This document shows, piece by piece, positions 33,959-44,645 of a DNA stretch of 55,960 bases. Made by a program: the position numbers and the translations under genes. The notes beneath the pieces are model-generated. The model saw nothing but the letters and a program-made list of their open reading frames with translations. It searched no databases and was not told the origin of the DNA. The first letter of the stretch is position 1. Each line of letters begins with the position of its first letter. Origin of the DNA: Aromatoleum evansii (GTDB lineage Bacteria; Pseudomonadota; Gammaproteobacteria; Burkholderiales; Rhodocyclaceae); the NCBI RefSeq assembly GCF_012910805.1, contig NZ_WTVK01000038.1, positions 1-55,960 on the forward strand, written 5' to 3'.

Positions 33959-34033
33959 TGGTGGGCGGTACTGGGATCGAACCAGTGACCCCTGCCGTGT
34001 GAAGGCAGTGCTCTACCGCTGAGCTAACCGCCC
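33959..34033 (-). tRNA. tRNA-Val (CAC), copy 2 in transcription order
   Basis: The minus strand folds into a complete cloverleaf: acceptor GGGCGGT/ACCGCCC, D arm with TAGCTCAGCGGTAGAGC, anticodon stem CTGCC/GGCAG around the loop TTCACAC (anticodon CAC, reading GUG codons) and T arm ending in GGTTCGATCC. CCA is encoded. It is identical to the copy at 34061-34135. Confidence 0.95.
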
Positions 34034-34060
34034 GGAATTCCGTGCGTCTTCGTCATCGAC

Positions 34061-34135
34061 TGGTGGGCGGTACTGGGATCGAACCAGTGACCCCTGCCGT
34101 GTGAAGGCAGTGCTCTACCGCTGAGCTAACCGCCC
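34061..34135 (-). tRNA. tRNA-Val (CAC), copy 1 in transcription order
   Basis: Same 75-nt sequence as the copy at 33959-34033, 27 bp apart, in the same orientation. Anticodon CAC, encoded CCA. The two are probably one transcript ending at the terminator at 33911-33952. Confidence 0.95.
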
Positions 34136-40104: not shown

Positions 40105-40716
40105 ATGAGGTTCCCGGATTTTTTTGCCGATGTGCGCCGCATCGAGCTGCACGACCCGCTCGCAGCCCTTCTGGGTGCCAGCGAGGGGGGCATCATCGAC
40201 TATGGCTACGAGGATGCGGTGAAGCTCGCCGGTCATTCGTGCCCGACGGTCGCGTCGGCGTACATGGTGTGCGTGCATGCGCTGCGTGCGCTCTACCCGG
40301 ACCAGTTGCCCGAGCGAGGCGGCTTGCGGGTCGAGTTCCGCGGGCGCCAGGACGAGGGCGTGACGGGCGTGATCGCAAGCGTGATCACCTTGCTGACCGG
40401 CGCGGCGCATGACGGCGGTTTCAAGGGGCTGGGCGGCCGCTTCGTGCGACGGGGCCTGCTCGACTTCGCGACCGAGCTGCCGCTGGCGATGCGTTTCACG
40501 CGCCTCGACTCCGCGACGTCCGTCGACGCGCAGGCGGATCTCTCGTCGGTTCCTGCCGATCCCGAAATGCCCGAGCTACTGGGGCGGTGCCTGCAGGCGC
40601 CGGACGATCTCGAACTGTCCGCCCGCTTCGGCCGGCTGTGGCAGGAGCGGGTACGCAGGATCCTGATCGAGCACGGCGACGACCCCGCGGTCTTTCGCAT
40701 CGAAGCGGCGAGCTGA
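40105..40716 (+). CDS. FmdE-like domain protein
   Basis: A 203-residue cytoplasmic protein. The stretch KLAGHSCPTVASAYMV near residue 45 is the conserved His-Cys motif of FmdE-type proteins (subunit E of formylmethanofuran dehydrogenase and related bacterial proteins), followed by VEFRGRQDEGVTGVIASVITLLTGA. Start 40105 follows AAGAGGTCTGAA; the upstream frame from 40057 is less likely. It is the first gene of the stretch that leads to the cupin and methyltransferase cluster, with 105 bp between. Redox- or metal-linked function is possible but unknown. Confidence 0.72.
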   Translation: MRFPDFFADVRRIELHDPLAALLGASEGGIIDYGYEDAVKLAGHSCPTVASAYMVCVHALRALYPDQLPERGGLRVEFRGRQDEGVTGVIASVITLLTGAAHDGGFKGLGGRFVRRGLLDFATELPLAMRFTRLDSATSVDAQADLSSVPADPEMPELLGRCLQAPDDLELSARFGRLWQERVRRILIEHGDDPAVFRIEAAS

Positions 40717-40746: not shown

Positions 40747-40773
40747 GGAACCGTCCGGCCGGGTTCTGCGTCC
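40747..40773 (+). promoter_or_regulatory. Candidate ECF-type promoter upstream of the cupin gene
   Basis: GGAACC (40747-40752), 16 nt of spacer and CGTCC (40769-40773) match the usual ECF (-35 GGAAC, -10 CGTC/GTC) layout, about 50 bp before the cupin start. The nearest sigma gene is the ECF factor at 42178-42831, so autoregulation of the cluster is plausible. Such short motifs also occur by chance in GC-rich DNA. Confidence 0.4.
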
Positions 40774-40821: not shown

Positions 40822-41277
40822 ATGAAAACCAACCGCACCCTGTTGACCGTGGCGGCCTTGGCTGCCGTCCAGCTGTTCGCATCCCCCCTCGCCGCCCAGG
40901 ACAAGAAGATCGAAACGGCGAACCTCGACGCGGCGGTCGCCGCCAACCCGCTGCCTGCGGGCGGTCCCACGGCCAAGGTCATCTCGTCGACCCGTGCCGG
41001 CAACAGCGAGCTGCAAATCATTCGCATGAGCAAGATCCGCCTGCACCATCATGCGCAGGAAGATCACGTGGTGTATGTGGCGCGCGGCAGCGGCACCGCA
41101 CGGCTGGAGAACGACGCCGGACAGATCGAAAGCCGTCCGGCCAAGCCCGGCGACATCTTCAACCTTCCGCGCAACAAGAAGCATGCCTTCGAGCGAAGCG
41201 GCGCTGAGGATCTGGTCCTCCTGGTCGTCGCGACGGCCGGATGGAAGCCGCTCGAGGACACCGTCTTTCACGAGTGA
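40822..41277 (+). CDS. Periplasmic cupin-domain protein
   Basis: A 151-residue secreted protein with a signal peptide (1-25, cleaved at LAAQ). The cupin domain has metal ligands in the expected order (His75-77, Glu80, His82, then His121), with KPGDIFNLPRNKKHAFE as the second half of the motif. It starts after GAAGGAGCAGTCG. It lies 105 bp after the FmdE-like gene and 120 bp before the methyltransferase-sigma unit, and a candidate ECF promoter lies just upstream. Function unknown; a binding or oxygenase role is possible for cupins. Confidence 0.8.
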   Translation: MKTNRTLLTVAALAAVQLFASPLAAQDKKIETANLDAAVAANPLPAGGPTAKVISSTRAGNSELQIIRMSKIRLHHHAQEDHVVYVARGSGTARLENDAGQIESRPAKPGDIFNLPRNKKHAFERSGAEDLVLLVVATAGWKPLEDTVFHE

Positions 41278-41286
41278 GAAGTCGCC

Positions 41287-41339
41287 TGCCCGCCGGGCGG
41301 GCACGGGCGCGTCACCTGCCCTTCGCGGGTGACGCGCCC
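41287..41339. terminator. Two stacked hairpins between the cupin and methyltransferase genes
   Basis: TGCCCGCC-G-GGCGGGCA (41287-41303) is followed by a perfect 12-bp stem GGGCGCGTCACC / GGTGACGCGCCC (41305-41316 and 41328-41339). No U tract follows. This can act as a partial or factor-dependent terminator that lowers read-through into the methyltransferase-sigma operon. Confidence 0.5.
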
Positions 41340-41397
41340 CTTGCGCGGCCCCGCGCGGGCGGGGCGGCGTTCGAACACATCCGATGGAGGACCGAAC

Positions 41398-42174
41398 ATG
41401 ACAGCGACGACCGTTTTCGATCCGCGGGAGCTCGAATCGCGGGTCAAGTCCATGTATTGCGCGGTTGCGGAGAATCCTCACGGCGCGTTCCATTTCGAAA
41501 TGGGGCGCGGACTCGCCGAGCGTCTCGGCTATCCCGCCGACGAACTCGATCGCATCCCCGTCGAGGCGATCGAATCGTTCGCCGGGGTCGGTCATCATTT
41601 CGATCTCGCCGCGCCGGTCGCCGGCGAGACCGTACTCGACCTGGGAAGCGGCTCGGGGATGGACACCTTCGTCGCCGCGCTGCGTGTCGGCCTGCAGGGA
41701 CGCGTGATCGGCATCGACATGACCGACGCGCAGCGGGCGAAGGCCGAGCGCCTGCGCGACGCACATGGTTTCGGCCAGATCCGCTACCTGAAGGGCTATA
41801 TTGAGGAAGTGCCCCAGCCCGATGCATCGGCCGATGCGGTGATCAGCAACGGCGTGATCAACCTTTCCGCCGACAAGCCTGCGGTGTTCCGCGAGGCCGC
41901 CCGCGTGCTGAAGTCCGGCGGACGCCTTGCGATCTCCGACATCGTCGCGGAGCGGGCCTTGCCCGAGGGCATCGTGTGCAATGCAACGCTGTGGGCCGCA
42001 TGCATCGGCGGCGCCGCGCAGCAGGACGAGTATCGCGAGATGATCGCTTGCGCAGGCCTGCGCATCGTGGAGATGCGCGACAACCCCGCGTATCGCTTCC
42101 TCTCCGAAAATGCGCAGGCGGCTTGCCGCAAGTACGGGGTGAAGAGCGTTTCGGTGCTCGCGACGAAGGCATGA
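41398..42174 (+). CDS. SAM-dependent methyltransferase, ArsM-like
   Basis: A 258-residue methyltransferase. The SAM-binding motif DLGSGSGMD is at 81-89 and [33 protein letters not shown] (~151-183) is the characteristic ArsM-like central region; [10 protein letters not shown] (59-68) is also typical. Cysteines at 21, 194, 202, 218 and 243 include one (LWAACIGG) that lines up with a catalytic ArsM Cys, but the full four-Cys set is not clear. Start 41398 follows GGAGGACCGAAC. It precedes the ECF sigma gene by 3 bp, so the two are one transcript. Confidence 0.82.
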
Positions 42175-42177
42175 CAG

Positions 42178-42831
42178 ATGGAACATGGGGCGTTTCAATC
42201 GTCGCTGCAGCGGAGCCGCTCCGGATGCGACCCACCTGCCCCGACGACCGAAGACCGCAGCTTCTTTGCGCTGCGCATCGGGGAACTGGCTGACCGGCTC
42301 TACGGCGTTGCGCTGCGCTTCACCCGCAACGGCGCAGCCGCCGAGGATCTCGTATCGGAGGCCGTCGTCAAGGCGTGGGCGCATCTGCCGCAGCTCGAAG
42401 ACCGCGCCTGCTTCGAGAAGTGGATCTTCCGCATCCTGGCGAACACCTTCTTCAGCCAGTGCCGACACGAACGCGAAGAGCTCCTCGACGCTGACGAGGA
42501 CGAGGATGGCTTTTCGCTGTTCGATCGCCTGCACCAGCCCTTCCTGCTGTGGTGGGGCAATCCCGAACAGGAATTGATCCACAAGCTGCTGTGCGAGGAC
42601 CTCGACCGTGCGCTGGGGGAGTTGCCCGACTGCTATCGCGCCGTCGTTGTCTCCGTCGACCTGCTCGGCCACTCGTATACCGAGGTCGCGGCGATGCTCG
42701 GCGTACCGGTCGGGACGGTTCGCTCGCGACTCAATCGCGCACGCTCGCGGCTGCAGCGCGCGCTGTGGCAGCAGGCGCTGGCGGCGGGGCTGGTGCAGGG
42801 CAAGTCCGCGGAGGACAACACTCATGACTGA
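42178..42831 (+). CDS. ECF-type RNA polymerase sigma factor
   Basis: A 217-residue group IV sigma factor. Sigma-2 region: [37 protein letters not shown] (~34-70) and [22 protein letters not shown]. Sigma-4 region: [49 protein letters not shown] ~35-residue insert, acidic with aromatic patches ([23 protein letters not shown]), separates the two. It lies 3 bp after the methyltransferase and overlaps the anti-sigma gene by 8 bp, so its partner is clear. Trigger unknown. Confidence 0.9.
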
Positions 42832-43063
42832 GCAGGAACGGATGCATTGCGATGAGGTGGTCGCCAGCCTGCTGGAGTACCTCGACGGCGAGATCGACGA
42901 CGCAAGAAGAGCGCTGATCGACGACCATCTGGCCGAATGCCGCGGGTGCTTCTCACGCGCCGAGTTCGAGCGCGCGCTGCGCGATCGCATGCGCTCATTG
43001 GCGAGCGCGCCTCCGCCCGACTCCCTCAGGCGCAGGCTGAAAGCGATTATCGACGAGTTCTGA
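42824..43063 (+). CDS. Zinc-binding anti-sigma factor (ZAS, zf-HC2)
   Basis: A 79-residue soluble protein with the ZAS signature His35-X3-Cys39-X2-Cys42 (HLAECRGC) plus an upstream Cys (MHCDEVVASLLEYLDGEI). It is short enough to be just the sigma-binding domain, without the membrane helix seen in many anti-sigma factors. Its start overlaps the sigma stop by 8 bp (translational coupling). Zinc release upon thiol oxidation is the known way such proteins free their sigma factor. Confidence 0.88.
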   Translation: MTEQERMHCDEVVASLLEYLDGEIDDARRALIDDHLAECRGCFSRAEFERALRDRMRSLASAPPPDSLRRRLKAIIDEF

Positions 43064-43086
43064 GCGGATACACGCGGGAGGAGACC

Positions 43087-43878
43087 ATGGTCGCGATCGC
43101 CGGACTCCGGAAGGAGCAGATCTTCGAGGCCGTGCAGCAGATGTACACGGACGTCGCCAACCAGCCGCAAAGGCGCTTCCACTTCCCGACCGGACGCGCA
43201 GCCTGCATTTTCGTCGGCTATCCGGAGAGCTGGCTGGAGCGGGTTCCGGACACCGCGCAGGAATCATTCGCGGGCGTCGGCTTTCCTTTCGCGGCGGAGG
43301 TGATTCGCCGCGGCGACACGGTGCTCGACGTGGGATCCGGGTCGGGGACGGATACGCTGATCGCGGCTGGACTCGTCGGCACGGACGGTCGCGTGCTGGC
43401 GCTCGACATGACGCAGGCGATGATCGACAAGCTGCGCGCGAACGCCACCCTTGCGGGCGCCTGCAACGTCGAGCCGATCGAAGGCAATGCGGAAGCCATC
43501 CCCATTCCCGATGCGTGCGTCGATGTCGTCACGAGCAACGGCGTGCTCAACCTCGTGCCCGACAAGCCCAGGGCCTTCGCGGAACTTCACCGCGTGCTCC
43601 GCCCAGGCGGGTGGGTGCAGCTTGCCGACATCGTGGTGTCGCAACCGATCGGCGAGAAGTCGCGCAGCAACCCCAGGCTGTGGGCCGAGTGCGTAGTAGG
43701 TGCAGTCATCGAGGAAGCCTATCTCGACGCCTTCCATCAAGCGGGTTTCGACGAGATCCGGATCCTGCGCCGCTTCGACTACTTCTCGGGCAGCAGCAGC
43801 GAGGACACGCGGCGGATCGCTGCCGCACTGGGCGCTCACGCCCTGGAACTCGTCTTGCGCAAGCCGCGGGCGGGCTGA
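43087..43878 (+). CDS. Second SAM-dependent methyltransferase, ArsM-like
   Basis: A 263-residue paralogue of the gene at 41398-42174, with the same architecture: SAM motif DVGSGSGTD (81-89), ESFAGVGFPF (59-68), NGVLNLVPDKPRAFAELHRVLRPGGWVQLADIV (~151-183) and LWAECVVGA with Cys202 at the same residue number as in the paralogue. Cysteines 40, 126, 144 and 202 differ partly from the first protein. It starts 23 bp after the anti-sigma gene behind GGAGGAGACC. The pair flanking sigma and anti-sigma genes suggests a shared, regulated task. Confidence 0.85.
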   Translation: MVAIAGLRKEQIFEAVQQMYTDVANQPQRRFHFPTGRAACIFVGYPESWLERVPDTAQESFAGVGFPFAAEVIRRGDTVLDVGSGSGTDTLIAAGLVGTDGRVLALDMTQAMIDKLRANATLAGACNVEPIEGNAEAIPIPDACVDVVTSNGVLNLVPDKPRAFAELHRVLRPGGWVQLADIVVSQPIGEKSRSNPRLWAECVVGAVIEEAYLDAFHQAGFDEIRILRRFDYFSGSSSEDTRRIAAALGAHALELVLRKPRAG

Positions 43879-43988
43879 GCCGGCCCCCGGCGCTGCGGAC
43901 GCCGGGGCAGCAAGATGCGGGGTGGGCATGGGTGTGCCGTCGTGCCGGATGTGCTAGCCTCGGGCCGCCCGCTTACGAATCTCTTCCG

Positions 43989-44387
43989 ATGAACGCCCTG
44001 TCGCTACCCGAACTGCTTGTCGTCTGCCTATGCGCCGAATGGTGCGGCACGTGCCGCGAATACCGCGCCGGATTCGAGGCGCTCGCGGCGCAGTGGCCGC
44101 AGGCCGGCTTCCATTGGGTGGATGTCGAGGACGATGCGGAGGTCGTGGGCGACCTCGACATCGAGAACTTCCCCACGCTGCTGATCCAGCGCGGTGACCT
44201 GGTGCTCTTCTTCGGCACCATGCTGCCGCAACATGTCTTCCTCCAGCGCACGCTGGAAACACTCACGGCCCTCGGCGATGACGAGGCGCGTGCGTATGCC
44301 TTCGCCAATGAGGAGCGGCGCTCCTGGCAGCGGGAGTGCAATCTCCGCCCTGCGCTGGCGGAGCATCTCGGGCGCAAGGCGGCCTGA
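43989..44387 (+). CDS. Thioredoxin-fold protein
   Basis: A 132-residue cytoplasmic protein. The active site is WCGTC (18-22), a CXXC with Thr, preceded by VVCLCAE and followed by a short thioredoxin body (FPTLLIQRGDLVLFFGTMLPQHVF). The cis-Pro is in NFPTLL. There is no signal peptide. It begins 110 bp after the second methyltransferase, so it may be separate. A thiol-disulfide partner for the adjacent zinc anti-sigma factor is a natural hypothesis but is not shown. Confidence 0.82.
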   Translation: MNALSLPELLVVCLCAEWCGTCREYRAGFEALAAQWPQAGFHWVDVEDDAEVVGDLDIENFPTLLIQRGDLVLFFGTMLPQHVFLQRTLETLTALGDDEARAYAFANEERRSWQRECNLRPALAEHLGRKAA

Positions 44388-44432
44388 GTCGGCGGCGCCC
44401 TCCTCTCCTTCCCCCCCTTCCGCCTCGCTTCA

Positions 44433-44645
44433 ATGCCCGTCCAGCCCGCCGATCGCAAGCGCTGCGTTTCCTGCAAGCGTTGGGGTGGTGCGCGCAAGCC
44501 AGGCGCCAACCCGGGCGAAGTGGAATACGAAGACGACGCCCGCGGCCCGTGCAACGAGGGACCGTGGCACGGCACCCTGCGCAGCCCGCGCAATGCCTGC
44601 GGCCAATGGGTCATGTGGGCCGAACTGAAGCTTCCCGAAGACTGA
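44433..44645 (+). CDS. Small Cys-containing conserved protein
   Basis: A 70-residue protein with four cysteines (CVSCKRW near the N-terminus, then PCNEGPW and NACGQW), suggesting a small metal site. It follows the thioredoxin-fold gene by 45 bp in the same direction. No named family was recognised. Its length and regular Cys spacing make a chance ORF unlikely, but expression is unproven. Confidence 0.62.
   Translation: MPVQPADRKRCVSCKRWGGARKPGANPGEVEYEDDARGPCNEGPWHGTLRSPRNACGQWVMWAELKLPED

Follow-up and report, generated by a model that had tools for sequence, protein, structure and literature searches.

The window, by which we mean the whole 55,960-nucleotide stretch of Aromatoleum evansii DNA under analysis, contains two genes for methyltransferases resembling the arsenite methyltransferase ArsM, which flank the genes of an ECF sigma factor and a zinc anti-sigma protein (ZAS), raising the questions of where this gene set begins and ends, what switches it on, and what its enzymes methylate. 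The reading preferred here, to which roughly even odds (about 0.5) are given, is that of a self-inducing detoxification operon, in which thiol stress would induce the methylation of a soft nucleophile, most likely reactive sulfur species. A fuller version is put forward more tentatively, namely that the two enzymes may represent an undescribed single-cysteine (or selenocysteine) methyltransferase class, sister to ArsM, which would detoxify reactive sulfur or selenium by methylation within a mobile, self-inducing stress island with its own ECF sigma factor, a MerC-like domain on one enzyme bringing in the substrate in many hosts.

Extent and recurrence of the island

All features of the locus lie on the forward strand. 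A predicted ECF promoter, GGAAC-N16-GCGTCC, spans positions 40747–40773 (−35 element at 40747–40751, −10 element at 40768–40773) and stands 48 bp 5' of the first gene of the unit, which encodes a cupin of 151 aa (40822–41277; Cupin_2 match at 9.5e-8) with an N terminus that, judged by eye, resembles a signal peptide. It is followed by the first ArsM-like class I SAM methyltransferase, MT1 (41398–42174), assigned from family profiles, ArsM structure matches, alignment and tree, by the ECF sigma factor (42178–42831), by the CHCC-type ZAS of 79 aa (42824–43063; zf-HC2), and by the second ArsM-like methyltransferase, MT2 (43087–43878; 263 aa). The tight packing described in the sequence-only reading is borne out by the coordinates, with 3 bp between MT1 and the sigma factor gene, an 8 bp overlap of the sigma factor and ZAS genes, 23 bp between ZAS and MT2, and the cupin gene ahead of them.

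Two further genes that had been counted as members of the cluster, a thioredoxin-like WCGTC protein (Trx, 43989–44387; thioredoxin family) and a small cysteine protein of 70 aa (44433–44645), are better regarded as flanks, since all 17 genomes of the genus have Trx, whereas the MT1 ortholog that marks the island is present in four, and both genes also occur at island-less sites. On the other side lies an FmdE-like protein (40105–40716, in a reading frame open from 40057), a label taken from the A. tolulyticum ortholog, whose match (0.0043) is below the cut-off; the family search with the window's own protein returned no family match. In seven of the 12 island-less genomes whose Trx locus was examined, Trx directly follows the FmdE-like gene, and the small cysteine gene comes 3' of Trx wherever the locus reaches that far, as it does in genomes with the island. 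This empty site was read over 12–13.5 kb in four genomes (G009, G015, G012 and G002) and from short loci in three more (G001, G013 and G014). Comparison of occupied and empty sites thus identifies the cupin, MT1, sigma factor, ZAS and MT2 genes as one island, inserted as a block between the FmdE-like and Trx genes, and the unit runs from the promoter at 40747 to the end of MT2 at 43878.

The same neighborhood, whose conservation elsewhere had been proposed as a check, recurs widely. MT1 relatives were collected at 80 loci. An ECF sigma factor gene accompanies 38 of them, in every case together with ZAS and MT2, and these 38 comprise 16 co-directional and 22 divergent layouts across genera, orders and classes, so that the cluster is not a chance assembly; the ECF-ZAS-MT2 set was also reached through MT2 in three further genomes. 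At 27 of the 37 sigma-bearing loci checked for it, a cupin gene belonging to any of three query families is found no more than 3 kb from MT1. On the Chelatococcus plasmid pCO-6, the gene order is the same as in the window, MT1 being shortened and the remaining cluster genes intact, a point that counts against the preferred reading. The earlier impression that no named system has this composition agrees with a literature search, which returned no description of the cluster. Relatives of the methyltransferases are also found in haloarchaea, and the hosts include soil, saline and groundwater bacteria.

Two methyltransferases beside ArsM

Both enzymes resemble ArsM closely in fold, in the SAM motif and in the third active-site cysteine (Cys224 in CmArsM). 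The closest PDB entries by sequence and by fold are ArsM structures (6cx6 and 4fr0), the sequences being 34–35% identical where CmArsM matches best by structure, and the best curated models are those of arsenite methyltransferases. The AGVG motif and the Cys202 layout noticed earlier as common to MT1 and MT2 reappear in the alignment, where the position equivalent to Cys224 is cysteine in all 137 rows, one TGA codon, in genome G070, having been entered as Cys. This TGA occupies the place of Cys202 in a genome with a tRNA-Sec, and apparently encodes selenocysteine. The other two arsenic-binding residues are replaced: in MT1, Cys202 is kept, while the positions equivalent to Cys72 and Cys174 (CmArsM numbering) are Val64 and Gly152, and Val and Gly occupy these sites in every MT1 and MT2 row covering them (77 MT1 rows; 37 and 38 MT2 rows), as opposed to cysteine in 21 of 21 ArsM-type rows. 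One study (PMC3877260) reports that the C174A variant of CmArsM is inactive on iAs as well as on MMA.

The scores and the tree agree with this difference. Against the NCBIfam arsenite methyltransferase model NF008823 (cut-off 263), MT1 reaches 208.2 bits and MT2 198.4 bits, both below the cut-off, and in a tree that took in ArsM-type enzymes only, MT1 and MT2 form branches apart from the 21 ArsM-type rows, with support of 96/92. The phylogeny against ArsM suggested earlier therefore places them on branches of their own beside ArsM, and the grouping with a known metabolite enzyme that had been considered did not occur within that set. Judged on these comparisons, MT1 and MT2 are sisters of ArsM and not ArsM itself, having lost the arsenic site of that enzyme, which makes 'arsenite' look an unreliable label for a branch without Cys72 and Cys174.

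It is accordingly very improbable that MT1 and MT2 are simply ArsM enzymes methylating arsenite under an unusual regulator, and arsenic, one of the substrates first proposed, is disfavored by the missing cysteines and by the surroundings alike. A tblastn search that used three ACR3 sequences and two of ArsC, covering up to 9 kb per side, gave no match around any of the 80 loci, though ACR3 scored above the cut-off in 30 of the 49 genomes searched. In addition, of the four genomes of the genus with the island, three contain a further sequence matching MT1 (46–48%); L029 in G016, which was the one examined, belongs to the ArsM type. In favor of arsenite, besides the structural and model matches, are two reviews that place a Sec-bearing arsenite methyltransferase, WP_011987699.1, ahead of their 'predicted' entries. 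One of the two, citing Fomenko 2007, gives it the motif UxxG and the heading 'experimentally verified'; as this motif is the same, selenocysteine at the place of Cys202 does not speak against arsenic.

The UxxG motif, which a review lists for ArsM-like selenoprotein families, fits the presumed selenocysteine of G070, and NCBI models exist for three such groups, ArsM/AhpD (NF041537), ArsM/DUF2284 (NF041536) and MTase/UXPK-star (NF047649). NF041537 is the top-scoring model for both MT2 (205 bits, from the methyltransferase part alone) and the G070 protein (192 bits), but the window scores are far below the cut-offs of these families (510, 575 and 460 bits). The window enzymes further differ in having Cys rather than Sec, in leaving the AhpD, DUF2284 and UXPK parts unmatched, and in their probable control by a sigma factor.

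Probable regulation by a sigma factor and its anti-sigma protein

The sigma factor matches Sigma70_r2 (5.1e-13) and Sigma70_r4_2 (1.8e-15), and the family search gave no match to sigma-70 region 3, which is the domain layout of an ECF factor. In 1.31 Mb of related loci, GGAAC-N16-GCGTCC gave 55 matches, mostly directly 5' of cluster genes, against one for a reversed control. The exact motif is present at 28 of the 38 sigma-bearing loci, an exact form with N15 at three, a form with one mismatch at five, and neither at two; at the 42 loci without a sigma factor, where the exact form alone was sought, it occurs in three. Depending on the locus, it stands 5' of MT1, the cupin, DsrE or the divergent sigma factor gene. 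Since the motif precedes the window's operon and recurs upstream of cluster genes elsewhere, the sigma factor very likely drives its own cluster from this promoter, the pairing of the two being deduced from their co-occurrence. The window's genome as a whole holds three exact matches (11 for the reversed pattern), and the regulon therefore seems to be the operon itself, which offers a concrete regulon to probe, with one sigma factor, one promoter word and five genes.

A likely partner in sensing is the ZAS, whose ligands Cys9, His35, Cys39 and Cys42 are kept in 34 of 34 aligned rows with the same spacing as C11/H37/C41/C44 of RsrA. RsrA is also the source of the nearest NCBIfam model (TIGR03988; 53.7 bits, below the cut-off of 62.5) and of the better of the two matches in a PDB search (6.8e-4). 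SigR of Streptomyces, the partner of RsrA, serves disulfide stress through a global regulon that involves the thioredoxin system. The SigR-RsrA pair is thus alike in its CHCC motif, and the window's sigma and anti-sigma genes overlap; the window differs in a ZAS that falls below the RsrA model, in its promoter, and in what appears to be a single operon with methyltransferases. According to an RsrA study (PMC4960319), the first cysteine of the CHCC motif is what makes a ZAS redox-sensing. Of the earlier proposal that the ZAS releases the sigma factor on thiol stress, the fit of the motif to thiol or redox release stands, and the trigger itself is a likely one deduced from that motif. A CHCC-type ZAS can also answer electrophiles, metals or NO.

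Candidate substrates and rival explanations

Under the preferred reading, the ZAS would keep the sigma factor bound for as long as the zinc thiolates of the ZAS are intact. Once a thiol-reactive stress had oxidised or otherwise modified them, the freed sigma factor would read the GGAAC-N16-GCGTCC promoter and transcribe its own cluster, yielding two methyltransferases and a periplasmic cupin, with a DsrE-like sulfur protein as well in relatives. With SAM as methyl donor and a single essential cysteine, apparently replaced by Sec in one relative, MT1 and MT2 would then transfer methyl groups to a soft nucleophile. The likeliest such nucleophile is reactive sulfur, whether as sulfide, persulfide or thiol, with selenide or telluride as possible others, and the methylated product would be volatile and less toxic. 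The choice of substrate is uncertain, and the roles of the cupin and DsrE are guesses.

Support for sulfur comes from the neighbors of relatives. Among 130 neighbors in MT1 operons, 23 match DsrE and nine OsmC, neither of which appears in the list of 25 families obtained for 121 control genes. DsrE lies within 3 kb of MT1 at 27 of the 80 loci, and genes resembling persulfide dioxygenase or ArsR-rhodanese lie within 4.5 kb at nine, two loci (L107 and L070) resembling sulfide/persulfide operons. Eight of the nine persulfide-type loci and five of the six OsmC loci are without a sigma factor, so that for the form with a sigma factor the connection to sulfur depends on DsrE (12 of 37 sigma-bearing loci); no DsrE, OsmC or rhodanese gene is among the genes called at the window's own locus. 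Taken together, the candidates are sulfur, selenium, tellurium or an organic electrophile or thiol, and the neighbors elsewhere favor sulfur chemistry, with a MerC-like fusion and a few mer loci keeping a soft-metal link in play.

In that soft-metal alternative, Hg(II) or an organometal would be imported or bound by a MerC-like domain of MT2, and the role of the methyltransferases would be to shield thiols or to modify a ligand attached to the metal. A C-terminal membrane extension is present in 26 of 35 complete MT2 relatives, with four long helices in the predicted model and a Cys301 invariant in 24 rows, and all seven extensions scanned match MerC (E of 5e-10 to 0.025). In addition, merB lies near MT1 in Salinirubellus, mer genes occur near MT1 in L042 and L051, with a mer operon adjoining MT1 in the latter, and a separate MerC-like gene follows MT1 in L065 (2.6e-5, below the cut-off). 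The fusion domain and the mer genes of L042 and L051 point away from sulfur toward a soft metal. However, the window's MT2 is without the extension, only four of the seven fusions (L050, L062, L077 and L092, but not L055, L095 or L110) reach the gathering score of MerC (PF03203), MerA-like matches occur at two of 80 loci, and SAM delivers CH3+, which is unsuited to Hg(II), so this alternative appears unlikely. A response to photooxidative stress (singlet oxygen) of the RpoE-ChrR sort, in which a lipid, quinone or thiol would be the target of the methyltransferases, seems slightly less probable still. The ChrR regulon (Rhodobacter, ECF11) likewise combines an ECF factor and a zinc anti-sigma protein with a cupin and methyltransferases as a single stress unit, and Cupin_7, the ChrR cupin, is matched by 21 of the 130 neighbors. 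Against this, the window's ZAS (zf-HC2 only) and cupin are separate proteins, its motif is CHCC rather than HHCC, the cupins examined start with what by eye resembles a signal peptide and would be kept apart from a ZAS in the cytoplasm, and the methyltransferases, with their invariant cysteine, resemble ArsM rather than lipid-type enzymes. Similarly doubtful is the idea that the system answers a toxic organic electrophile, or nitrosative stress in denitrifying hosts, and methylates a thiol conjugate. In its favor are the reactivity of CHCC zinc thiolates with such agents, several hosts that are presumably denitrifiers by name or reputation, and globin genes at four MT1 loci, all without a sigma factor. 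An aldehyde-dehydrogenase-like gene about 3 kb away at nine loci, mostly in sigma-bearing halomonads, could also hint at an electrophile, as could an alcohol-dehydrogenase-like gene a few kb away at five loci (both labeled by eye), but these genes lie outside the cluster operons, come largely from one family, may reflect gene order shared by descent, and are absent from the window's locus.

If the sulfur reading holds, the H2S/methanethiol S-methyltransferases MddA, MddH and MddM1/M2 would be functional counterparts of MT1 and MT2. MT1 and MT2 are set apart from them by the published description of MddM1/M2 as proteins of 210 and 204 aa of the UbiG and UbiE kind. Were the chalcogen reading true, a new enzyme class would be added to biological sulfur and selenium methylation, and hence to volatile emissions and reactive-sulfur tolerance, in soil, saline and groundwater bacteria. 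The annotated records examined for this group name its proteins only as methyltransferase.

Composition and limits of the island

The gene order derived from the sequence alone was upheld. A cupin gene (40822-41277), the ArsM-like methyltransferase genes MT1 (41398-42174) and MT2 (43087-43878), and between these an ECF sigma factor gene (42178-42831) and a zinc anti-sigma factor gene (ZAS, 42824-43063) all lie on the forward strand. MT1 ends 3 bp before ECF, ECF overlaps ZAS by 8 bp, and ZAS and MT2 are 23 bp apart. In family searches, the cupin matched Cupin_2, both methyltransferases were ArsM-like class I enzymes, the sigma factor was of the ECF type, and the ZAS matched zf-HC2. MT1 orthologs with 81-92% identity were found in three further genomes of the genus (4/17 counting the window's own), the closest among named genomes being that of Aromatoleum tolulyticum (92%).

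The sequence-only reading had also included the thioredoxin-like WCGTC protein (Trx, 43989-44387) and the 70-aa small Cys protein (44433-44645) in the cluster. These are instead considered ancestral flank, since the Trx gene is present in all 17 genomes of the genus and both genes persist in cluster-less loci. The Trx locus was examined in 12 of the 13 cluster-less genomes (all except G010). In four of them (G009, G015, G012, and G002; 12-13.5 kb each), the genes run 4HBT, PQQ-type sugar dehydrogenase (a label assigned by eye), FmdE-like, Trx, small Cys, and GntR, with the FmdE-like gene immediately preceding Trx; the two likewise adjoin in G001, G013, and G014, where the loci examined are short, and about 1 kb separates the FmdE-like match from Trx in G011 and G007. 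An FmdE-like match was not found within 3.4 kb around Trx in G006, G008, and G004. Because the FmdE-like gene adjoins Trx in cluster-less genomes and Trx occurs throughout the genus, the island is delimited as cupin to MT2. The FmdE-like gene itself (40105-40716), whose position between the sugar dehydrogenase gene and Trx is conserved within the genus and whose ortholog weakly matches PF02663, was rejected as a member, as it is located 5' of the promoter and retained in genomes lacking the island. The cluster, the island, its recurrence, and its promoter are regarded as solid. Elsewhere in the window, a tandem pair of tRNA-Val(cac) genes occupies 33959-34135 on the minus strand.

Recurrence and predicted promoter

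Relatives of MT1 were sought in one genome per species across 84,980 species, using an alignment of eight MT1 proteins as the query; 258 of the 296 pattern matches were relatives, and the best 80 loci of these were analysed with a home-made codon-usage gene caller that may miss small genes. Of these 80 loci, 69 carry a Pseudomonadota label. Conservation of the neighbourhood in other genomes, on which the sequence-only reading depended, was established by tblastn, with the ECF gene present in 38 of these best 80 loci and ZAS and MT2 in all 38. No MT2 without ECF was detected among the 80, the apparent exceptions L094 and L116 being MT1 cross-matches, and L117 was rejected as an ECF-bearing locus with a match of only 24%. 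MT1 and ECF are co-directional, as in the window, in 16 of the 38 loci and divergent in 22, and most of the 37 ECF-bearing loci considered by label fall in Oceanospirillales (16), Hyphomicrobiales (9), and Rhodocyclales (3). A search of 398 Pseudomonadota genomes with MT2 returned four past E 1e-60, the window's own included, and the other three also carry ECF-ZAS-MT2. The cupin, a shortened MT1, ECF, ZAS, and MT2 are found on the Chelatococcus plasmid pCO-6, while MT1 proteins of 54-61% identity occur on eight haloarchaeal plasmids, three of which were read and show an OsmC gene followed by MT1, with no sigma factor annotated. A DNA-level search of plasmids gave no match, and no description of this cluster was recognised in searches of open-licence PMC papers.

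A predicted promoter, GGAAC-N16-GCGTCC, is located at 40747-40773, 48 bp 5' of the cupin gene. The exact motif occurs 55 times in 1.31 Mb of loci versus once for the reversed pattern, the spacer-length test gives a sharp maximum at 16, and in divergent loci the ECF-MT1 gap contains outward-facing copies. Among the best 80 of the 258 relatives, the exact motif is present in 28 of the 38 ECF loci and in 3 of the 42 ECF-less loci (L074, L105, and L076), the contigs of L074 and L105 stopping just 5' of MT1. Variant forms, looked for in ECF loci only, comprise exact copies with N15 (L048, L054, L072) and copies with one mismatch (L049, L055, L082, L101, and L123, the last with N17); L062 and L066 have no motif at up to one mismatch. 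The genes 3' of the motif are MT1, cupin, DsrE-like (L057, L059), and, in divergent loci, ECF, and autoregulation of the cluster by its sigma factor is very likely on this pattern. A wider regulon was rejected, with no further targets nameable, as the exact motif was not enriched genome-wide in four island-bearing genomes (3, 4, 8, and 5 copies versus 11, 10, 18, and 8 copies of the reversed control); given this lack of enrichment, the sigma factor appears to control no more than its own operon. At L076:8885 (Rhodoferax), the motif stands 5' of MT1 in a locus without ECF, ZAS, and MT2, which may reflect control in trans. A third class I methyltransferase family (family 18) is found beside MT1 at L043:9801-10619 and in L051, L062, L095, and L118; the sigma promoter motif also precedes a methyltransferase gene of 272 aa in L095.

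Relationship of the methyltransferases to ArsM

The solved structures best matching the MT1 model (pLDDT 91.8, 40 rows) are CmArsM, CrArsM, and human AS3MT. The arsenic ligands of CmArsM are given as Cys72, Cys174, and Cys224, with C174A and C224A reported as inactive on iAs and MMA and C72A as inactive on iAs (PMC3877260). Across 137 aligned rows, including 77 MT1 and 21 ArsM-type sequences (five with an arsenite methyltransferase annotation, the other sixteen without a name), Cys occupies the Cys72 and Cys174 places in all 21 ArsM-type rows, whereas Val and Gly occupy them in 77/77 MT1 rows and in every MT2 row reaching them (37 and 38, respectively). The third Cys (the Cys224 place, Cys202 in the window's MT1) is conserved across the alignment, with TGA at this place in genome G070. 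The phylogeny against ArsM that the sequence-only reading had proposed, built from 67 of the 137 rows, placed MT1 (98/98), MT2 (100/100), and ArsM-type (96/92) on separate sides; the G070 row has a long branch, and its place beside MT2 is therefore unsure. By their sequences, MT1 and MT2 are classed as ArsM sisters without the ArsM arsenic site.

The G070 gene (L036:7092-7874), 43% identical to MT1, has an in-frame TGA exactly at the active-site Cys of the ArsM-like methyltransferase. Its genome contains a tRNA-Sec over the gathering score, adjoining a stretch that resembles the C-terminal half of SelB, and SelB falls below every curated cut-off in G070. A SECIS-like fold 3' of the TGA is weakly supported: windows of 40-60 bases fold at 0.6 to 2.3 SD lower than sequences with simply shuffled bases. 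The enzyme is likely a selenoprotein.

Trigger and candidate substrates

Cys9, His35, Cys39, and Cys42 are kept in 34/34 ZAS rows, with the same spacing as the RsrA ligands Cys11, His37, Cys41, and Cys44, the first Cys of which is reported to confer redox sensing on such an anti-sigma factor (PMC4960319), and RsrA is the better of two matches in a PDB search with ZAS (6.8e-4). From this spacing and match we infer that the ZAS likely senses thiol stress, by analogy with RsrA.

Arsenic, which the sequence-only reading had listed among possible substrates, is placed low, given the replacement of the two ligand residues, the separate tree branches, and the lack of ACR3 or ArsC matches by tblastn within 9 kb of MT1 in any of the best 80 of 258 loci, many of whose contigs extend less than 9 kb a side. 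In its favour, the Sec-bearing protein WP_011987699.1 appears as an arsenite methyltransferase before the predicted entries in two reviews (PMC13188914, PMC9312934), one of which has it under an experimentally verified heading with the motif UxxG and reference to Fomenko 2007. If that protein lacks Cys72 and Cys174 and is active on arsenite, the case against arsenic is weaker; the functions in the selenoprotein list that includes arsenite methyltransferase are described as mostly uncharacterised in one review (PMC13188914). An arsenic cluster of ACR3, ArsC, and ArsM on the Sulfuricella plasmid pSCD (L167:2869-5594) also has a sigma-70 family gene.

A soft metal would also fit as the target of the cluster, as mercury genes lie near MT1 in two loci: in L042:8441-12883, on a plasmid of the haloarchaeon Salinirubellus, MT1 adjoins OsmC with merB about 2.6 kb away, and in L051:1975-8872, a betaproteobacterial MAG, a mer operon with MerA over the cut-off is near MT1. 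MerA-like genes were found within 9 kb in 2 of the best 80 of 258 loci, and Hg(II) is chemically an improbable acceptor for a methyl group from SAM, which counts against this reading. Among the same 80 loci, 26 of 35 complete MT2 rows (L092:6597-7838 and 25 others) carry a C-terminal extension of 3-5 hydrophobic segments, so that the methyltransferase is fused to a MerC-like four-helix membrane domain with one invariant Cys. The extension matched MerC in 7/7 scanned at E <= 0.025, four over the Pfam cut-off; all 24 rows aligned have Cys301, and the model of the extended protein has four long helices (pLDDT 83). The window's MT2 is without this extension, and we know of no other source for a methyltransferase-MerC fusion.

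Reactive sulfur or selenium is ranked first among the candidate substrates of the cluster. The 130 MT1-operon neighbours from 65 loci (same strand, gaps <=250 bp, within 1.3 kb; excluding methyltransferase and sigma genes as well as loci L033 and L047) include DsrE (23), ChrR-type cupin (21), Cupin_2 (19), OsmC (9), and UPF0047 (9), while 121 control genes 5-9 kb off, unmatched in strand or operon, include three Cupin_2, with DsrE and OsmC not among the 25 families listed, the lowest of which have one member. By tblastn within 3 kb of MT1, DsrE was detected in 27/80, OsmC in 6/80, and cupins in 32/80 of the best 80 of 258 loci; nine of the 80 have a gene resembling persulfide dioxygenase or ArsR-rhodanese within 4.5 kb. 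Counted against the sulfur reading, ECF is absent from 8 of the 9 persulfide-type loci and from 5 of the 6 with OsmC. Sigma-bearing loci have a cupin in 27/37, DsrE in 12/37, and either one in 35/37. In L107:5640-12963 (an Actinomycetes MAG), DsrE-MT1, a CsoR-family regulator, a rhodanese-like gene, a rhodanese-fused MBL protein, a TauE-like gene, and ArsR-rhodanese would form a cst-like cluster for sulfide/persulfide that includes a methyltransferase, and in L070 MT1 occurs with YeeE/YedE-like genes, ArsR-rhodanese, MBL, and DsrE. In these loci, TauE and YeeE/YedE are labels given by eye, and neither the MBL genes nor the regulator genes pass any sulfur-specific cut-off.

The divergent form of the cluster in halomonads (for example, L102:3857-6559 and L089:11421-13166) is surrounded by aldehyde- and alcohol-dehydrogenase-like genes, SulP- and BCCT-like transporter genes, and UPF0047, all labelled by eye except UPF0047. 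SulP-, BCCT-, aldehyde-dehydrogenase-, and alcohol-dehydrogenase-like genes recur 1-3 kb off in halomonad loci, perhaps through shared descent.
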